Below, in pieces: positions 7,046 through 21,322 of a DNA stretch of 21,985 nt. A model generated the notes under the pieces. It did not search any database, had not been told where the DNA came from, and saw only the letters and a list, made by a program, of their open reading frames with translations. The stretch lies in assembly GCA_016202645.1 (NCBI GenBank), contig JACQOF010000028.1, forward strand, positions 1 through 21,985, given 5' to 3'. The stretch's first letter is position 1; the number at the start of each line of letters is the position of its first letter. The translations under genes were made by a program, and so were the position numbers. The DNA comes from a bacterium (GTDB taxonomy: Bacteria; Lindowbacteria; 2-12-FULL-62-27).

Positions 7046-8383
7046 ATGATCCCAACTTCGTCCGGCGTCGGATTTGTCCCGCATTCGGACGCCCAGCTCG
7101 ATGCGATGGCGCGGGACATCGGCCTGGCCCGGCCCGAGGATGTCTTCTCGGAAATTCCCAAACATCTGATGGCGGCCCAGCCTCCGCTCGGCCGCGCCGG
7201 CCTTTCCCAGGACGACATCCTTCGGCTCGGGATGAAGGCCGCGGCGCGGACCCGCCACGACCGGCCGATTTTTCTCGGCGGCGGATTCTATGACCGCTTC
7301 GTCCCGCCCGCGCTGGTTGAGGCGATCCTTCGCCGGACCGATTATTATTCCGCCTATACGCCCTACCAGCCCGAGGCGTCCCAGGGATTGCTCCAGGGAC
7401 TTTTCGAATACCAGCGGGGCATTTGCGCGCTGACCGGATTGGATGTGTCCAACGCGTCGCTCTATGACGGCGCGACGGCGCTCGCGGAGGCGGTGCTCTG
7501 TCTCTACGGCGCGTCGGAACACACCCGCGGCGCCGTGCTGGTTTCGGCCGCGGTCCATCCCCACTACCGCGCGGTTCTCCGGACTTATCTCTCGGACATT
7601 TCTCTGGACTTGATCGAAATCCCCTATTGCGCTGAAGGCGGAAACACTCTCCCGGACGCGGTCCGGCGGGCCCGGTCCAACGGCCCGGTCATCGCGGTGG
7701 TCGCGCAGAACCCGAACTTCTTCGGCGTCATGGAAGACATGCGCGGCATCGCGTCGGCCGCGAAGGATCACGAAGCCGGAATGGTTTATGTCTTCGAGCC
7801 GACGTCCCTCTCCGTCCTCGCCAGTCCGGAAGAAACCGGCGCCGACATCGCCGTCGCCGAGGGCCAATCCCTTGGCCTGCCGCTTTACTATGGGGGTCTT
7901 GCGCTCGGCGTGTTCGCGGCGCGCGAAAAATTCCTGCGCCGTCTGCCCGGCCGGATCGTCGGAAAAACGCTGGACAACCAGGGCCGCGAGGCCTACTGCC
8001 TCACGCTTCAGACCCGCGAACAGCACATCCGCAGGGAGAAGGCGACGTCCAACATCTGCACCAATCACACCCTCTGCGCCATTTACGCGGGCGCCTACCT
8101 GCGGCTTCTCGGGGCCGATGGTCTGAGGAGCGTCGTTGAAACGTCGGCGGCGCGAATGGACCAGTTCCTCGACGGTCTTCTCCCCGACTTCGCGGCGCCG
8201 CGGTTTTCATCGCCGTCCCTTTTTGAAGTTGTCATCCGGTCCAAGCGGCCGCTGGACCATCTGCCTGTTCTGCCTCTGCGGTCTTATTATCCGGATCTGC
8301 AAGACGCGTATCTGGTGTCCTTCACCGAACGGCGCACGACGGCGGACGTGATGGGACTTCTGTCGGAGATCTCCCGGGCATGA
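7046..8383 (+). CDS. gcvPA: Glycine dehydrogenase (decarboxylating) subunit 1
   Basis: 445 residues, the usual length for the N-terminal half of the split P protein. Recognisable segments include FVPHSDAQLDAMARDIGL at the start, FLGGGFYDRF, YSAYTPYQPEASQGLLQ, DVSNASLYDGATALAEA, and YYGGLALGVFAAREKFLRRLPGRIVG. With subunit 2 it decarboxylates glycine using PLP and loads the aminomethyl group onto GcvH. The split PA/PB form is typical of Gram-positives, Thermotogae, archaea and many candidate phyla; the single-chain GcvP is typical of Proteobacteria. Its stop overlaps the gcvPB start as ATGA. Confidence 0.96.
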   Translation: MIPTSSGVGFVPHSDAQLDAMARDIGLARPEDVFSEIPKHLMAAQPPLGRAGLSQDDILRLGMKAAARTRHDRPIFLGGGFYDRFVPPALVEAILRRTDYYSAYTPYQPEASQGLLQGLFEYQRGICALTGLDVSNASLYDGATALAEAVLCLYGASEHTRGAVLVSAAVHPHYRAVLRTYLSDISLDLIEIPYCAEGGNTLPDAVRRARSNGPVIAVVAQNPNFFGVMEDMRGIASAAKDHEAGMVYVFEPTSLSVLASPEETGADIAVAEGQSLGLPLYYGGLALGVFAAREKFLRRLPGRIVGKTLDNQGREAYCLTLQTREQHIRREKATSNICTNHTLCAIYAGAYLRLLGADGLRSVVETSAARMDQFLDGLLPDFAAPRFSSPSLFEVVIRSKRPLDHLPVLPLRSYYPDLQDAYLVSFTERRTTADVMGLLSEISRA

Positions 8384-9774
8384 GCGGCCTCTTCCACTGC
8401 GCCTCCTCCCCGAGGGTCGAGCGTCTATCGGAGGGACTGGCGAGACGCGCGCCCCTCGATCTTTCCGTCCTCCCGGAAAACGATCTCGTCCGGCACCATG
8501 TGAACTTGTCCCGGAAAAATCTCTGCGTCGACTCGAGTTTTTATCCGCTCGGATCCTGCACGATGAAATACAGCCCCAAGGCCGGGGAGGCCGTCGCCGC
8601 CGAACGCGGGTTTTCCAGCGCGCACCCGTGGCAGAAACCGGAGGAAGTCCAGGGCGTGCTCCACGTCCTCGGGGAACTTTCCCGCGATCTTGCGGCGCTG
8701 ACGGGCATGGACGCGATGTGTCTCTATCCGGCCGCGGGCGCGCACGGGGAACTCTGCGCGCTGAAAACCGCCCGGCAATATTTCCGCCTGAAAAACGATC
8801 CAAACCGGACGGAAGTCCTCGTGCCGGAAAACGCGCACGGCACCAATCCCGCGTCGGCGGCCATGGCGAAACTCCAGGTTGTCGTCGTGCGGATGAACAA
8901 CCGTGGGCGGGTCGACGTCGAGGACCTCCGGAAAAAACTCTCGGCGCGGACCGCCGTCCTCATGCTGACCAATCCCAATACCCTCGGCCTATTCGAAACG
9001 GAAATCGACACCGTCGCCAAACTCGTGCATGACGCGGGCGGTCTCCTGTATTACGACGGCGCGAACCTCAACGCCATTCTCGGCCGCGTGCGGCCGGGCG
9101 ACATGGGATTCGACATGATTCATGTCAATCTCCATAAAACATTTTCCATCCCGCACGGCGGCGGCGGCCCGGGCGCGGGGCCGATCGGCGTCAAGGCCCA
9201 TCTCGCGCCCTTTTTGCCCGGCCCATTTCTTGTACAGGAATCCAATCGTTGGTCCTGGACCGAGGCCGACAGCCGCTCGATCGGCCGCTTCCACGGCGCG
9301 CACGGAAATTTTCTGAATCTTCTCAAGGCCTGGGTTTATCTCCACCTTCTCGGCGACGAGGGTGCGCGGCGCGTCAGCCTCGCCGCGGTGCTCAACGCCA
9401 ATTATCTCCAGGAAAAAATCAAGCCGCTCCTGCCGGTCCCATACGGCGCCGGCCGCTGCATGCACGAATTCGTCGCGTCCGCGCTTCCGCTCAAGGATGA
9501 GACGGGCGTGTCGGCGATGGACATCGCCAAGCGGATTCTGGACGAAGGCATGTACGCGCCAACGGTCTACTTTCCGCTCCTCGTCAAGGAGGCCCTCATG
9601 GTGGAGCCAACCGAGACGGAACGCCGCGAGACCCTCGACCGTTTCGTGGCGCTGATGCGGACAATCGTGGAGGAAGCCCGGACCCATCCCGAGCGCCTGC
9701 ACGACGCTCCAGTGCGCACGCCTGTGGGACGAGTGGACGAAGTCCGCGCCGCCCGAAATCCTGTCTTGAAGTAG
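8380..9774 (+). CDS. gcvPB: Glycine dehydrogenase (decarboxylating) subunit 2
   Basis: 464 residues, close to the usual length of about 480. It contains CVDSSFYPLGSCTMKYSPK near residues 49-67, MCLYPAAGAHGELCAL, ENAHGTNPASAAMA, and the PLP-lysine motif HVNLHKTFSIPHGGGGPG with K253. LLYYDGANLNAI provides the Asp that contacts the PLP nitrogen. It pairs with gcvPA to form the alpha2-beta2 P protein. The start overlaps the end of gcvPA as ATGA, which suits equal synthesis of the two subunits. A heptad repeat separates its stop from uvrC. Confidence 0.97.
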   Translation: MSGLFHCASSPRVERLSEGLARRAPLDLSVLPENDLVRHHVNLSRKNLCVDSSFYPLGSCTMKYSPKAGEAVAAERGFSSAHPWQKPEEVQGVLHVLGELSRDLAALTGMDAMCLYPAAGAHGELCALKTARQYFRLKNDPNRTEVLVPENAHGTNPASAAMAKLQVVVVRMNNRGRVDVEDLRKKLSARTAVLMLTNPNTLGLFETEIDTVAKLVHDAGGLLYYDGANLNAILGRVRPGDMGFDMIHVNLHKTFSIPHGGGGPGAGPIGVKAHLAPFLPGPFLVQESNRWSWTEADSRSIGRFHGAHGNFLNLLKAWVYLHLLGDEGARRVSLAAVLNANYLQEKIKPLLPVPYGAGRCMHEFVASALPLKDETGVSAMDIAKRILDEGMYAPTVYFPLLVKEALMVEPTETERRETLDRFVALMRTIVEEARTHPERLHDAPVRTPVGRVDEVRAARNPVLK

Positions 9775-9782
9775 GAGTTGTT

Positions 9783-9814
9783 GGCTGAAGGCTGTGGGCT
9801 GAGGGCTGAGGGCT
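9783..9814. repeat. Heptad repeat (GGCTGAG)n between gcvPB and uvrC
   Basis: Four 7-bp units and a half: GGCTGAA, GGCTGTG, GGCTGAG, GGCTGAG, GGCT. It fills most of the 47-bp gap. The last GAGGG lies about 9 bases before the uvrC ATG and is the only ribosome-binding-like sequence there, so the repeat may supply the uvrC ribosome site. Confidence 0.75.
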
Positions 9815-9821
9815 CTCCCAC

Positions 9822-11510
9822 ATGAAACCTCTGCACGACATCGCCCGCGCCGCGCCCCGCGCGCCGGGCGTTTACCTCTTCAAAGACGCCGCCGGAAAAG
9901 TTCTCTACGTCGGCAAGGCCTCATCTCTTCGAGACCGGCTCGCCTATTATTTTTCCGGCAGGATTCCTGATAAGACCCGGCTCTTCCTGAAAAAAGCCGC
10001 GGACCTGGAAATTCTTCTCTGCCGCTCGGAATACGAAGCCTTCATGCTTGAATACACGCTGATCAAGGAACACCAGCCGGCTTTCAACGTGGTGTTCCGG
10101 GACGACAAGCGATATCCCTACCTCAAAATCACGTCGGAGGATTTTCCGAGGCTGATCGTGACCCGGCGCGTCGAAGAGGACGGGGGCCGGTACTTCGGCC
10201 CCTTTGTCTCCGGGTCGAACGTTCGGCGGATTCTAGACATGACCCATCGCTTCTTCAAGATCCGGACCTGCAAACGGCGGATCCTTGAAGGCAAAAAAAA
10301 TCCGCCCCTGTGCCTTGAATACCACCTCAAGCGGTGCGACGGGCCCTGCGAGGCCCTGGTGTCGAAGGCCGTCTACGCCGAACAGATCGCGCGTGCCGAA
10401 CGGTTTCTCCGGGGCGATTACGGCGCGCTCCTCGCGGAACTGGGCGCGAAAATGCGGGAGGCTTCGGGCGCAAGGTCGTTCGAACTGGCGGCCCTGTACC
10501 GAGACCAGATCGCGGCGGTGCGGGAGCTGTCCGAAAAACAGCGCGCTGCCTCCGCGCGCGCGACGGACATCGACGCGATCTCCTTCGCGTCGGACCCCAA
10601 CCGCGGCCGGATTTGTTTTTATGTGTTTCGAGTCCGCAAGGGCCACATCATCGGAAGCGCCGGCTTTGTTTTTCCGCTCGCCGCCGCGGACGAGGCCGAG
10701 GCCCTCGGACAATTTTTGCCGGAATACTACAAACTCCGCACCGACATCCCGACGGCCGTGGCCCTTCGGACCGAGCCCGCCGCGCCGGCGAGCCTCCGCC
10801 GGTGGCTCGCCCGGCTGGCCGGACGGGCGGTCAAACTCTGGGCGCCACAGCGCGGCTACGCGAGGGACCTCGTCGGCATGGCGGAAAAAAACGCGCGGGC
10901 CAAACTCTTTGAAAAATCCGATCCCGACGCGGAGGAACTGCTCGACCGCGTCCGGGAAAAACTCCAGCTGGACCGGCGGCCGGAATGCATCCACGGCTAC
11001 GACGTCGCCAATCTCGGCCCCAGCATCGTCACCGGCGCGCGCGTCGTGTTTCTTCACGGCAAGCCCGCGCGCACGCATTACCGGTCGTACGGACTCCAGG
11101 AACTCGAGGCCAAGGACGACTACGCCGCGATGGAGGAACTCGTCCGCCGGTCGGTCCGGCGCGCCGTCGAGCAGGAACCCGAGGCGGCGCCGGATTTACT
11201 GCTCATCGACGGCGGCCTCGGCCATGTCCGCGCGGCTCGCAAAGCCCTGCGGCCATTCTCGTCTGAAGTTGACCTTAAATCCGCAATCCGCAATCCCAAA
11301 TCCGAAATCCACCATCGTCCGGGCATCGAAATCGCCGGTCTGGCCAAGGAGGAGGAACGACTGGTGCTGGAGGACGGCAGAATGCTCCGGCTTGCCGGAA
11401 CCGACCCTGTGCTCAACCTCCTGCGGCGGATCCGCGACGAAGCCCACCGCTTCAGCCGAAGGCTGATGACGTTGCGGGCCAAAAAGAAAATGCTGGCGCG
11501 AAAAGCGTGA
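9822..11510 (+). CDS. uvrC: Excinuclease ABC subunit C (UvrC), C-terminally short, with in-frame repeat insertion
   Basis: 562 residues. The GIY-YIG domain spans about 1-95 (GVYLF 16-20, YVGKA 29-33, R37). A cysteine set C150, C164, C172, C176 fits the UvrC Fe-S cluster. A UVR segment lies near 205-240 (the UvrB contact). The RNase H-like domain follows, with HGYDVANLGP (391-400), LLIDGGLGHV (460-469) and DEAHRF (539-544). UvrC makes both incisions in nucleotide excision repair. Two oddities: about 20 residues at roughly 481-500, including SAIRNP, are encoded by a heptad repeat, and the chain ends soon after DEAHRF, so the usual C-terminal helix-hairpin-helix module is absent. No HhH remnant appears in the next gene, so a recent frameshift is unlikely. 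The stop overlaps the next GTG as GTGA. Confidence 0.95.
   Translation: MKPLHDIARAAPRAPGVYLFKDAAGKVLYVGKASSLRDRLAYYFSGRIPDKTRLFLKKAADLEILLCRSEYEAFMLEYTLIKEHQPAFNVVFRDDKRYPYLKITSEDFPRLIVTRRVEEDGGRYFGPFVSGSNVRRILDMTHRFFKIRTCKRRILEGKKNPPLCLEYHLKRCDGPCEALVSKAVYAEQIARAERFLRGDYGALLAELGAKMREASGARSFELAALYRDQIAAVRELSEKQRAASARATDIDAISFASDPNRGRICFYVFRVRKGHIIGSAGFVFPLAAADEAEALGQFLPEYYKLRTDIPTAVALRTEPAAPASLRRWLARLAGRAVKLWAPQRGYARDLVGMAEKNARAKLFEKSDPDAEELLDRVREKLQLDRRPECIHGYDVANLGPSIVTGARVVFLHGKPARTHYRSYGLQELEAKDDYAAMEELVRRSVRRAVEQEPEAAPDLLLIDGGLGHVRAARKALRPFSSEVDLKSAIRNPKSEIHHRPGIEIAGLAKEEERLVLEDGRMLRLAGTDPVLNLLRRIRDEAHRFSRRLMTLRAKKKMLARKA
11277..11311. repeat. Intragenic heptad repeat in uvrC
   Basis: Five consecutive 7-bp units: AAATCCG, CAATCCG, CAATCCC, AAATCCG, AAATCCA. 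Bases 11275-11296 are identical, over 22 bp, to 17782-17803 inside pheS. It is read in frame as LKSAIRNPKSEI at a point where UvrC proteins normally pass directly from the DGG-loop helix to the IGLAK strand. Confidence 0.85.
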
Positions 11511-15173: not shown

Positions 15174-17201
15174 TCACCTGAGGCGCGCGCCGATCTGTCG
15201 TTCCAGCCGCGCCAGCGCGGCGTCGCGGGACCGGTTCGCTTCTTCGTCCGAAAGACTCCGGACGGGCGACTGAAAACGGAGCGATACCCCCAGTGCGTAC
15301 GCCCCGGCAGGGAGATTGTCTCCGCGGTAGAGATCGAACACATCGACGTGAACAAGGTCCGACAGGCCCGCCGCGCGGACTTCCCGGCAGACATCTCCGG
15401 CCGTCACAGCCTGGCCCACAACGAGCGAGAGGTCCCGGCGGATGGACGGGAACCGCGGGATCGCGGCGTAAGCGACGGCCGCGCGTTCGAAGGAAAGCAC
15501 GCGGCTCAGGCTGATCTCCGCGGCGAAGGCCGGCTGGGACAGATCAAAAGTTTTACGGGCCTCTTCTGAAACCAGGCCCATACAGCCGATGGACACGTCG
15601 CCCACCCGAATGGCAGCGCAGGCGGAGGGGTCAAGACCGCCGACGGCGGCCGGCAGAAAAACAGTTTCCGGAAGGGCGCGGCCGGCATCGGCCAGGATGG
15701 CCATGATGATTGCCTTGAGATCGAGAAAGTCGACCGGACGGGCCGGTCTCGAAAAATGCGGCGGCGCGGCCTCGCCGGAGATCACCACACCCAGGCGAAG
15801 TTCCTCCTTCAGAGGAGCGCCCGGCAGAAAAACCGCGCCGGTTTCAAAGAGGCGGATGGAAACGCCGGCCTCCCGGCGGATGTTGAGCGACAGCGTCGCA
15901 AGCAGTCCCGGCAGAAGCGTCGGCCGGAGGTGGGACGCGGCAAGGCTGAGAGGATTTTGAAGGGCCACCGCATCGGCGGGGGAGATGCCGAATCCGCGCA
16001 ATGATTTTTCGTCCACGAAACTGAGTTGAACCGTCTCGGTCAGTCCCTGCGACAGCGCCGACCGCCGGACCCGATCCAACGCGGTGACATGATCAGAGCG
16101 TTCCGCCGGCCGCATCGCCGGGATTCGGGACGGGATGCGGTCCATGCCATATAGCCGAGAAACCTCCTCAACCAGATCATGGGGGCCGCGCAGGTCCGGA
16201 CGAAAACTCGGCGGCACGACCCGCCAGCGGCCCGCGCCCGACGACGCGACCCTGCAGCCTGTCGCCGCCAAAAATTTTCGGACGCTCGCGGGCGGAACCG
16301 AAACGCCCATCAGGCGGTCAATGTCCTCCACGCTCAGCCGGATGGCGGAAGGAGAATCCGGCGCGCGGCCCTCCGCTTCCACCCACTCCAGATTGCCACC
16401 GGTGAGTTCCTCGATGAGCTCGATCGCCCGGTGGAAGGCGCGTTCAAGCCCGGCCGGATCGACCGAACGCTCAAACCGGAACGAACTTTCTGTCGCCAAT
16501 CCCAGCCGCCGGCACGTGCGCCGGACTGTCGACGGTTCGAACCAGGCGCATTCGAGAAAAATGTTCCGGGTCGTTTCGGAAACCGAAGTCTCCAAGCCGC
16601 CGATCACTCCGGCCAGGGCCACCGGCCTGCCGGCGGTGATCACAAGATCATCCGCCAAGGAATATGTGTTTCCGTCGAGGGCCGCAATTTTTTCGCCGGG
16701 ACGGGACCGGCGGACGTGGATGGATTCGCCGAGTTTGTCCGCGTCGAATACATGGAGAGGCTGGCCGAGTTCGGCCAGGATGAGATTGGTGACGTCGACG
16801 GCGTTGTTGAAGGATGCATAACCGGCCTGACGAAGTTTCCGGACAGCCCATTCCGGCGACGGACCGATTCGCGCGCCGTCGATCCGCGCGCCCAGGTAGC
16901 GCCGGCAGCCCGAGCCACGGTCGATCTGGATGAATCCCCGCTTTTTTGGAACGGTCATGCGCCGGACCGCGGGAGGACAAAGACGCACGCCCATCACGGC
17001 GGAAATTTCGCGGGCCATGCCCCACACGGAGAGAAGATCCCCGCGGTTCGGAGTGATCTCGACTTCGAGGACGCGGTCGCCCTCGATTTCCTCCTCGCCG
17101 GCGATCTCGACGCCGGTCTCCGTCAGGCGCCGCGCCAGACGCGCGCGGTCGGCGGCGGTCAGCCGGACGAATTCGGAAACCCAGCCGATGGGCAGTTTCA
17201 T
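15174..17201 (-). CDS. pheT: Phenylalanine-tRNA ligase beta subunit, short form
   Basis: 675 residues, against about 790-800 for the usual bacterial subunit. It starts LPIGWVSEFVRL and goes straight from ETGVEIAGEEEI to VLEVEITPNRGDLLSVWGMA (residues 45-64), so the tRNA-binding EMAP-II/OB domain normally inserted at about 40-150 is missing. The B3/B4 editing region (about 110-290), the B5 domain (about 305-370), the catalytic-like core and the C-terminal anticodon-binding FDX-ACB domain (FPSIRRDLSLVVG onward) are present. It overlaps pheS by ATGA and is followed 7 bases later by ccmC. The bacterial C-terminal domain shows it is not the archaeal-type short beta subunit. Confidence 0.95.
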   Translation of the reverse strand: MKLPIGWVSEFVRLTAADRARLARRLTETGVEIAGEEEIEGDRVLEVEITPNRGDLLSVWGMAREISAVMGVRLCPPAVRRMTVPKKRGFIQIDRGSGCRRYLGARIDGARIGPSPEWAVRKLRQAGYASFNNAVDVTNLILAELGQPLHVFDADKLGESIHVRRSRPGEKIAALDGNTYSLADDLVITAGRPVALAGVIGGLETSVSETTRNIFLECAWFEPSTVRRTCRRLGLATESSFRFERSVDPAGLERAFHRAIELIEELTGGNLEWVEAEGRAPDSPSAIRLSVEDIDRLMGVSVPPASVRKFLAATGCRVASSGAGRWRVVPPSFRPDLRGPHDLVEEVSRLYGMDRIPSRIPAMRPAERSDHVTALDRVRRSALSQGLTETVQLSFVDEKSLRGFGISPADAVALQNPLSLAASHLRPTLLPGLLATLSLNIRREAGVSIRLFETGAVFLPGAPLKEELRLGVVISGEAAPPHFSRPARPVDFLDLKAIIMAILADAGRALPETVFLPAAVGGLDPSACAAIRVGDVSIGCMGLVSEEARKTFDLSQPAFAAEISLSRVLSFERAAVAYAAIPRFPSIRRDLSLVVGQAVTAGDVCREVRAAGLSDLVHVDVFDLYRGDNLPAGAYALGVSLRFQSPVRSLSDEEANRSRDAALARLERQIGARLR

Positions 17202-18280
17202 CCGAGCGCCCCGAACTGCGCGACAAAGCGGACATCGTTTTCATAGAAGAGCCGGATGTCGCTGATCGCGTATCTCAACATCGCGATCCGCTCGACCCCC
17301 ATCCCGAACGCAAGGCCGGTCACGCTCGACGGGTCGATCTTCACCGATTTGAAAACGTTGGGATGCACCATCCCGGCCCCGAGGATTTCCAGCCAGCCGG
17401 TCGATTTACAGGTGCGGCAGGCCGAAGCCCGCTGACGGGATTCGCCCCCGCAGATCACGCACGACACGTCGACTTCCAGGGAAGGCTCCGTAAACGGAAA
17501 AAAGGACGGTCTGAGCCGGAGATGGACGGACGAACCGAACAGAGTCTTCGCGAAATATTCGAGCAGGCCCCGCAGGTCCCGCATCGTGACGCCGCGGTCG
17601 ACCCAGAGGCCCTCCACCTGATGAAACATCGGCGCGTGCGAAACATCATCGTCCCGGCGGTACACGCGCCCGGGCGCGATCACCCGCACCGGCGGCCGGC
17701 GCTTCTCCATCACATGAATCTGCACGGGCGAGGTATGGGTCCGCAGCAGGTATTGCGGATTGCGGATGGCGGATCGCGAATTTAAATCCGCAATCCGCAA
17801 TCCACAATCCGCAATATAAAATGTGTCATGCATGTCCCGCGCCGGATGATCGGCGGGCACGTTCAGCGCGCCGAAATTGTACCAGTCGGTCTCGGCCTCC
17901 GGGCCGCCGGCAATCTCAAATCCGGCGCGGCCGAAGATGTCGCAGATGTCGTTCAGGGTCGTCAGAACGGGATGCGCGGCGCCCCGCGAAACGGAGCGGG
18001 CGGGAAGCGTGACGTCGAAGGCCGCGCTCCGCGCGGCGGGGCCGGACCGGCCGGACTGGGCTTCCTTCAGCTTCGATTCGATAAATCCCTTTAATTTGTT
18101 GAGATCGGCGCCCCGGGCGCGGCGGCCTTCCGGGGGGACTTCGGACATGCGGGAAAACTCGGCGGCGATGAGGCCGTTGCGGCCGAGAAAACGGATCCGG
18201 ATTTCCTCCAGGGCGCGCTCATCCGCGGCCCCGGCCAGGGCACGCTCAAAGTCGCCTTGGATGCTGTCGAGATCGGTCAT
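17198..18280 (-). CDS. pheS: Phenylalanine-tRNA ligase alpha subunit with 22-residue palindrome-encoded insertion
   Basis: 360 residues. The N-terminal coiled-coil covers about 1-75. The class II core follows: HPVLTTLNDICDIF, GPEAETDWYNFGALNVP, HPARDMHDTFY (motif 2 region), LLRTHTSPVQIHVME, VYRRDDDVSHAPMFHQVEGL, and GMGVERIAML (motif 3) near the end. A Cys pair set (CVICGG and CRTC) precedes GWLEILGAGMVHPNV, as in some other bacteria. It charges tRNA-Phe together with PheT. Between DTFY and LLRTHTS, where related proteins have only a few residues, 22 extra residues (about 156-177) are encoded by a 66-bp inverted repeat. The insertion sits in a loop, so activity is probably kept. The start lies 22 bases after rplT. 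Confidence 0.96.
   Translation of the reverse strand: MTDLDSIQGDFERALAGAADERALEEIRIRFLGRNGLIAAEFSRMSEVPPEGRRARGADLNKLKGFIESKLKEAQSGRSGPAARSAAFDVTLPARSVSRGAAHPVLTTLNDICDIFGRAGFEIAGGPEAETDWYNFGALNVPADHPARDMHDTFYIADCGLRIADLNSRSAIRNPQYLLRTHTSPVQIHVMEKRRPPVRVIAPGRVYRRDDDVSHAPMFHQVEGLWVDRGVTMRDLRGLLEYFAKTLFGSSVHLRLRPSFFPFTEPSLEVDVSCVICGGESRQRASACRTCKSTGWLEILGAGMVHPNVFKSVKIDPSSVTGLAFGMGVERIAMLRYAISDIRLFYENDVRFVAQFGALG
17751..17816. repeat. 66-bp near-perfect palindromic element inside pheS
   Basis: The two 33-base arms meet at TTTAAA (17781-17786) and match at 29 of 33 positions. Each arm is built from roughly 7-bp units related to ATTGCGG. Its length is exactly 22 codons, so the pheS frame is preserved. 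Bases 17782-17803 are identical to 11275-11296 in uvrC. Confidence 0.9.
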
Positions 18281-21257: not shown

Positions 21258-21322
21258 GAGGCCCCTTTCCGAGGCCCCTTTCCGAGGCCCCTTTCCGAGG
21301 CCCCTTTCCGAGGCCCCTTTCA
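21258..21322. repeat. Five tandem 13-bp repeats (GAGGCCCCTTTCC)
   Basis: Five head-to-tail copies at 21258, 21271, 21284, 21297 and 21310; only the last base of the fifth copy differs. It lies in the 209-bp region between tRNA-Val and thrS. Each copy contains GGCCCCTTTC, complementary to GAAAGGGGCT at 21369-21378 apart from the last pair. Confidence 0.95.

Follow-up and report, generated by a model that had tools for sequence, protein, structure and literature searches.

In-frame AATC-box repeats in phenylalanine-tRNA ligase and other proteins of a Lindowbacteria genome, with occupancy of the same coding sites in sister genera

Background

How has a palindrome come to lie, in frame, inside pheS, the gene for the alpha subunit of an enzyme as conserved as phenylalanine-tRNA ligase, and is it an isolated accident or one copy of a family? 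The question was raised by a first-pass annotation, made from the sequence alone, of the stretch of DNA that we call the window (21,985 nt; assembly GCA_016202645.1, contig JACQOF010000028.1, positions 1 to 21,985), which comes from a bacterium of the lineage Lindowbacteria; 2-12-FULL-62-27. The source genome (G000) is a draft of 2.9 Mb in 146 contigs, 82% complete. For the comparison within the phylum, three genomes (G000, G001 and G002), each representing a separate genus, were used. Genes were called with a codon model that was trained on the source genome and then applied to G001, and the copies in G001 were collected by pattern match.

Results

The insert in pheS

The pheS gene (17198-18280, minus strand) is an uninterrupted reading frame of 360 aa, identified by profile search (NCBIfam TIGR00468, E = 1e-93), with the insert at about residues 155-177; the nearest named PheS is that of a Candidatus Lindowbacteria MAG (64%). 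We re-derived the inverted repeat that the first-pass annotation had described, a 66-bp element at 17751-17816 that is made of 7-bp units and read in frame within pheS. Its arms (17751-17783 and 17784-17816; 0 nt apart) are complementary at 29 of 33 positions (88%), the predicted fold of the single-stranded DNA has an energy of -29.3 kcal/mol (shuffled sequences, -12.0 +/- 2.3; z = -7.5; equalled by 0 of 200 shuffles), and a scan of the 22-kb window found no other hairpin of such strength. The 66 bp run from the third base of codon Tyr155 to the second base of codon Tyr177, and the encoded stretch reads ...DTFY-IADCGLRIADLNSRSAIRNPQY-LLRTHTSP.... An Rfam scan gave no match at the element and detected two tRNAs only.

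The repeat resolves into two arms of 32 bp. Arm 1 (17751-17782, minus strand) has five boxes with 7-bp spacing and reads, 5' to 3' on that strand, AATTCGC GATCCGC CATCCGC AATCCGC AATA, and arm 2 (17785-17816, plus strand) reads AATCCGC AATCCGC AATCCAC AATCCGC AATA, so that some boxes are degenerate against the consensus AATC. Between them lies the strandless dinucleotide TA (17783-17784), which yields the TTTAAAT centre typical of most dyads in the genome.

The extra residues are missing from nearly all of about 30 aligned PheS sequences of other bacteria, in which the usual turn has 2-4 residues, and the two bacterial PheS structures in the alignment (4p71 and 6p8t) likewise have a short turn of 2-4 residues and lack the insert; the annotated position, where PheS normally has a short loop, was thus confirmed. 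In the AlphaFold model of PheS (mean pLDDT, 79; pTM, 0.62) the insert is placed between two short strands and residues 158-166 have values below 50. The model is consistent with a flexible loop, and this low pLDDT, obtained from the modelling that had been proposed as a check of surface exposure, is compatible with such a loop rather than a proof of exposure.

A dispersed family with a 32-bp arm as its unit

With an 18-bp family probe and up to 2 mismatches, 78 matches were found in the 2.9-Mb genome (reversed control, 0). Of 28 catalogued elements, 17 lie wholly inside predicted ORFs, 5 at ORF edges and 6 in regions called intergenic, one of these last being the N-terminus of ArgH on closer look. 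The search of the source genome for copies inside other genes, which had been proposed as a check, was accordingly positive, with at least 17 of the 28 in frame within predicted ORFs.

Nine of the 28 elements are dyads with a TTTAAAT-like centre and arms placed tail-to-tail, and the others are single arms. Because most genomic copies are single, a description as two 32-bp arms suits the element better than the 66-bp palindrome of the first-pass annotation: what repeats is a 32-bp five-box arm, and in the palindrome two independent arms are joined as a dyad. Alignment of the arms gave the structure AATC-NNN (four times) followed by AATC, where the NNN spacers vary and are mainly CGC or CGA; the unit of the source genome is AATCCG[CA]. 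Four boxes were counted in 11 arms of the source genome, five in 19 and nine in one; the corresponding counts were four in 4, five in 26, six in 4 and seven in one in G001, and four in 8, five in 13, six in 2 and eight in one in other bacteria. Where four boxes were counted, an end box has often mutated, as it has in pheS. In G001 most exact matches to the five-box pattern are un-nested, and in G311, which lies outside the family, this holds for 16 of 16; arrays are longer in some other carriers, for example G181.

Within a dyad, the arms resemble each other no more than arms taken from different dyads do (similarity 0.786, against 0.809 when permuted), so that the likeness of the arms was rejected as evidence that the hairpin is selected; the hairpin results from the pairing of arms and has no conserved stem. 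The openness of the unit in six frames was also considered as a special adaptation; this was rejected, because both strands are open in half of all heptamers.

A second copy lies in the window, a single arm at 11278-11309 (plus strand; AATCCGC AATCCGC AATCCCA AATCCGA AATC) that is in frame, as LKSAIRNPKSEI, in uvrC (9822-11510, plus strand; excinuclease subunit C, 562 aa, assigned from the ORF and a profile search). Other short arrays in the window are a 7-mer array of the GGCTGAG/TCAGCCC type at 9783-9814, in the gap that separates gcvPB (8380-9774) from uvrC, and a perfect tandem array of the 13-bp unit GAGGCCCCTTTCC (4.9 copies) at 21258-21321, with thrS on one side and, on the other, a tRNA/integrase-like ORF that lies at the end of the contig.

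Host genes and direction of reading

Profile searches identified as hosts PheS, UvrC, GlmM (with two inserts), dihydropteroate synthase (DHPS/FolP), HisF, SsnA and a WaaA-type Kdo transferase. Other copies extend the N- or C-termini of proteins, namely radical-SAM, MqnA/D-like and pilin-like proteins and the C-terminus of a ResB-like protein; these names, and that of ArgH, were assigned by eye from the sequences. A copy in G062, which belongs to another family, is in frame within a HemW-like protein (also named by eye).

All 23 internal single arms of G000 and G001 have the AATC strand as their coding strand (P = 2.4e-7), which gives a hydrophilic reading (NPxSxIx), and the ratio was 19:0 when five paralogous sites were counted once (P = 3.8e-6). 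The sole apparent exception in the orientation table is the pheS dyad, which was scored as single since its other arm has diverged. Arms at N-termini were oriented 7:5, several reversed copies resembling hydrophobic signal-peptide or leader starts, and the difference between internal and N-terminal arms was significant (Fisher's test, 0.0024). Because internal arms always take the hydrophilic direction, the peptide is probably under selection. The bias would be best explained by translation together with purifying selection; a mechanistic strand bias is a possible alternative source.

Five paralogous proteins of G001 (L295, L267, L272, L277 and L080) carry an array at one common site, with AATCCAA-like units in four of them and AATCCGC in L080; a relative of theirs in G000 (L034) bears a sorting tail of the T9SS type.

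Same sites, different repeats in the sister genera

The main unit in G001 is AATCCAA, with 98 matches there against 8 in G000, and there is no dyad among the 36 elements tabulated for G001. Drift in GC content was rejected as the cause of the change of unit between genera, because the GC contents are close (0.619 and 0.603 in G000 and G001; 0.58 in G002).

In 7 of the 11 host genes examined, five-box arrays of the AATCCAA type occur in G001 at the sites that are occupied in G000 (PheS, UvrC, SsnA, KdtA/WaaA, the radical-SAM N-terminus, the ResB C-terminus and the ArgH N-terminus). With an assumed, generous chance of 10% per gene, the probability of such coincidence is 2e-5, so that these sites are strongly preferred. 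In MqnX, the G001 array is directly upstream of the start. The loops of G002 contain yet other units, that is, TCGTCAG and an 8-mer in GlmM, GACGAGC in SsnA and units of about 10 bp in PheS. Thus, the PheS of the sister genera has extra residues from tandem arrays of their own, which half bears out an objection foreseen in the first-pass annotation, namely that relatives might carry the same loop with unrelated DNA. At the second GlmM insertion site, the glmM of G001 (L234) has a different palindromic stretch, CCCCCCCTTGAAAAGGGGGGG, which is read as PPLEKGGPGG.

Shared sites of this kind could have arisen in the ancestor of the family, if ancient insertions had been kept at the same loops and the unit had since been homogenised in each genus by concerted evolution, with gene conversion among dispersed copies. 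Sharing in 7 of 11 genes whose proteins are only about 55-78% identical in alignments of G000 with G001 speaks for this explanation, as does the fact that nearly all copies in each genome carry that genome's unit. However, one site can hold different families or periods: the WaaF site is filled by a 7-mer array in G001 but by an 8-mer array in G000, and GlmM of G002 has both a 7-mer and an 8-mer. Certain sites are, moreover, empty or nearly so in one genus (FolP and HisF in G001, KdtA in G002, RlmB and PepA in G000), and a tract of 32 bp is short for gene conversion. We consider ancient insertion unlikely and favour recurrent filling of permissive loops over concerted evolution of old insertions. 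The empty sites were found solely in other genera, where the junctions are too diverged for a target-site duplication to be read. Across the three genomes, one per genus, no excision, circular form or polymorphic insertion came to light.

Distribution and a candidate mover

An array of the type AATCCGN was present in 35 of 386 sampled genomes (about 9%), across many families. A survey of 422 kb revealed more families of 7-mers and 8-mers (for example CAGCCAA, TCAGCCC, CTCCCTTT and GTATCGGA), which also occur single or paired, and arrays of period 7 and period 8 far exceeded those in shuffled controls. In G000, the 8-mer families CTCCCTTT and GTATCGGA (L170, L175, L177, L186, L312 and others) have about 31-41 bp per arm, and their arms, single or in hairpins, are often within or at the edge of predicted genes.

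Matches to the Y1 transposase profile (PF01797, Y1_Tnp) numbered 10 in G000, 8 in G001 and 6 in G002, mainly in ORFs of about 300 aa, and many RAYT-like Y1 loci (e.g., L338, L339, L342 and L349) bear terminal inverted repeats. A short tandem array lay within 150 bp of the Y1 ORF in 10 of 23 loci, compared with 26 of 183 size-matched genes (P = 0.0017); each of these loci has its own unit, and none of the 23 Y1 loci inspected was flanked by AATC-type arrays. We treat this enrichment as a lead only, because none of these arrays belongs to the AATC family and short arrays are frequent in the background as well. The presence of a Y1 transposase was uninformative as an explanation of carriage, since most non-carriers have Y1 too. 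Among possible movers, the best candidate, though a weakly supported one, is a RAYT-like Y1 transposase that acts in trans.

Discussion

The copy number, the five-box design, the in-frame insertion, the orientation bias, the lineage-specific occupancy of the same sites and the presence in unrelated bacteria are observations, and the explanation that we regard as probable is a dispersed, selfish-looking element with a 32-bp arm, selected into tolerant loops whose sites are refilled repeatedly and whose translated peptide is a passenger. According to this explanation, arms would insert without regard to orientation, selection would purge the copies that damage a protein, and the survivors within genes would be those in frame in tolerant loops or at termini, internally in the hydrophilic reading only. 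The peptide would be translated as a passenger, probably functionless. Tolerant sites would be refilled again and again, sister genera placing their own unit, or another repeat family, at the same codons. From the observations we infer active movement, translation and an occupancy that results from re-insertion rather than from genome-wide homogenisation of old insertions; that the inserted peptide is translated and neutral is likewise suggested by the sequences.

Alternatively, the arms might be functional, as multi-box binding sites of a nucleoid or regulatory protein or as RNA hairpins that are tolerated in genes. A favoured number and spacing of boxes, seen in unrelated bacteria too, and the copies that are intergenic or near start codons would fit such a role; the spacer and the unit differ between sister genera, however, the pairing of the hairpin is not conserved (0.786 against 0.809, as above) and the same loop may be occupied by other families instead, which makes a functional site improbable. 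Local replication slippage, by which tandem repeats would arise independently in length-tolerant loops, would suit the tandem 7- and 8-bp units in permissive loops and the other short-unit arrays at these loops in G002, but seems highly improbable for a single unit that is dispersed genome-wide on both strands, has a sharp mode of five boxes instead of a broad spread, and has arms that pair as dyads.

Beyond refilling by a selfish element, the data might be taken to indicate that uncultivated bacteria widely harbour a class of mobile, protein-invading DNA that has so far gone unrecognised. Its replicating unit would be the five-box 32-bp arm, with a unit sequence particular to each genome and with insertion sites conserved between genera, and a dedicated copying mechanism would have to target the same coding loops anew or rewrite them. 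We offer this wider proposal tentatively and with some doubt.

Until now, the in-frame entry of selfish repeats into core enzymes has been regarded as peculiar to Rickettsia and its relatives. In the present case, the lineage is unrelated, the minimal element is different, and three genera fill the same loops with different repeats. Two questions are thereby made testable, the origin of new protein loops and the spread of geneless 7-bp arrays through genomes and phyla. The family also accounts for the odd stretches, similar to NPKSEIR or SAIRNPQ, that predicted proteins contain, and cautions against reading function into them.

Comparison with known repeat systems

We conclude that the AATC boxes form a protein-invading repeat family that works like the Rickettsia palindromic elements (RPE), is unrelated to them by sequence and probably refills permissive loops time and again. 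The RPE-like behaviour that the first-pass annotation had proposed is borne out by a dispersed family in frame at loops of many genes; a match in sequence or size to RPE is not part of the likeness. A scan of ten insert-bearing proteins against NCBIfam, a library that presumably includes RPE models, gave no RPE domain at E <= 0.001. Translation of an RPE has been demonstrated experimentally (gmk), whereas here it is suggested by the open frame and the orientation bias. The RPE are palindromes or stem-loops of unique sequence, 105-146 bp long, of Rickettsia (Ogata et al. 2000; PMC2229807). Like RPE and the related Wolbachia elements, the present repeats are dispersed, small and hairpin-capable, lie in frame in conserved protein genes and are apparently kept translated; unlike RPE, they consist of 32-bp five-box heptamer arms or 66-bp dyads, and most copies are non-palindromic and form no hairpin.

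Bacterial MITEs that overlap ORFs, e.g., QMITE1 of Coxiella, are 150-400 bp long with direct repeats at their ends (PMC5896051); they are likewise non-autonomous small repeats that contribute to proteins, but are longer than our 32-bp arms. With the REPIN/RAYT system the family shares a short unit that occurs as singlets and as hairpin-forming inverted doublets (the nine dyads of G000), as well as Y1 (HUH) genes in the genome. REP units, however, are themselves palindromic and extragenic (PMC3116915), whereas the arm described here is non-palindromic and in many cases lies within genes, and repeats of the AATC family flank none of the Y1 genes.

Heptamer arrays as such are known, from the STRR of cyanobacteria and the TAACTGA repeats of Beggiatoaceae (PMC4679880) and from the heptamers of Xanthomonas and Nostoc (PMC4692102), so that the proposal of an undescribed family holds, as far as we found, for the present combination of features and not for heptamer arrays in general. 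The TAACTGA sets are mainly intergenic, upstream of start codons, with two to six copies, and the cases in ORFs are chiefly at protein ends (PMC4679880). The AATC-box family differs from such arrays in its mode of five boxes, in the dyads that are common in one genome, in the internal position of its copies in core enzymes and in the share of copies within ORFs (17 of 28). It agrees with them in being made of 7-bp tandem arrays that are dispersed over the genome, patchy over distant phyla and without a known mover, and at the DNA level its place is among heptamer arrays of the TAACTGA kind.
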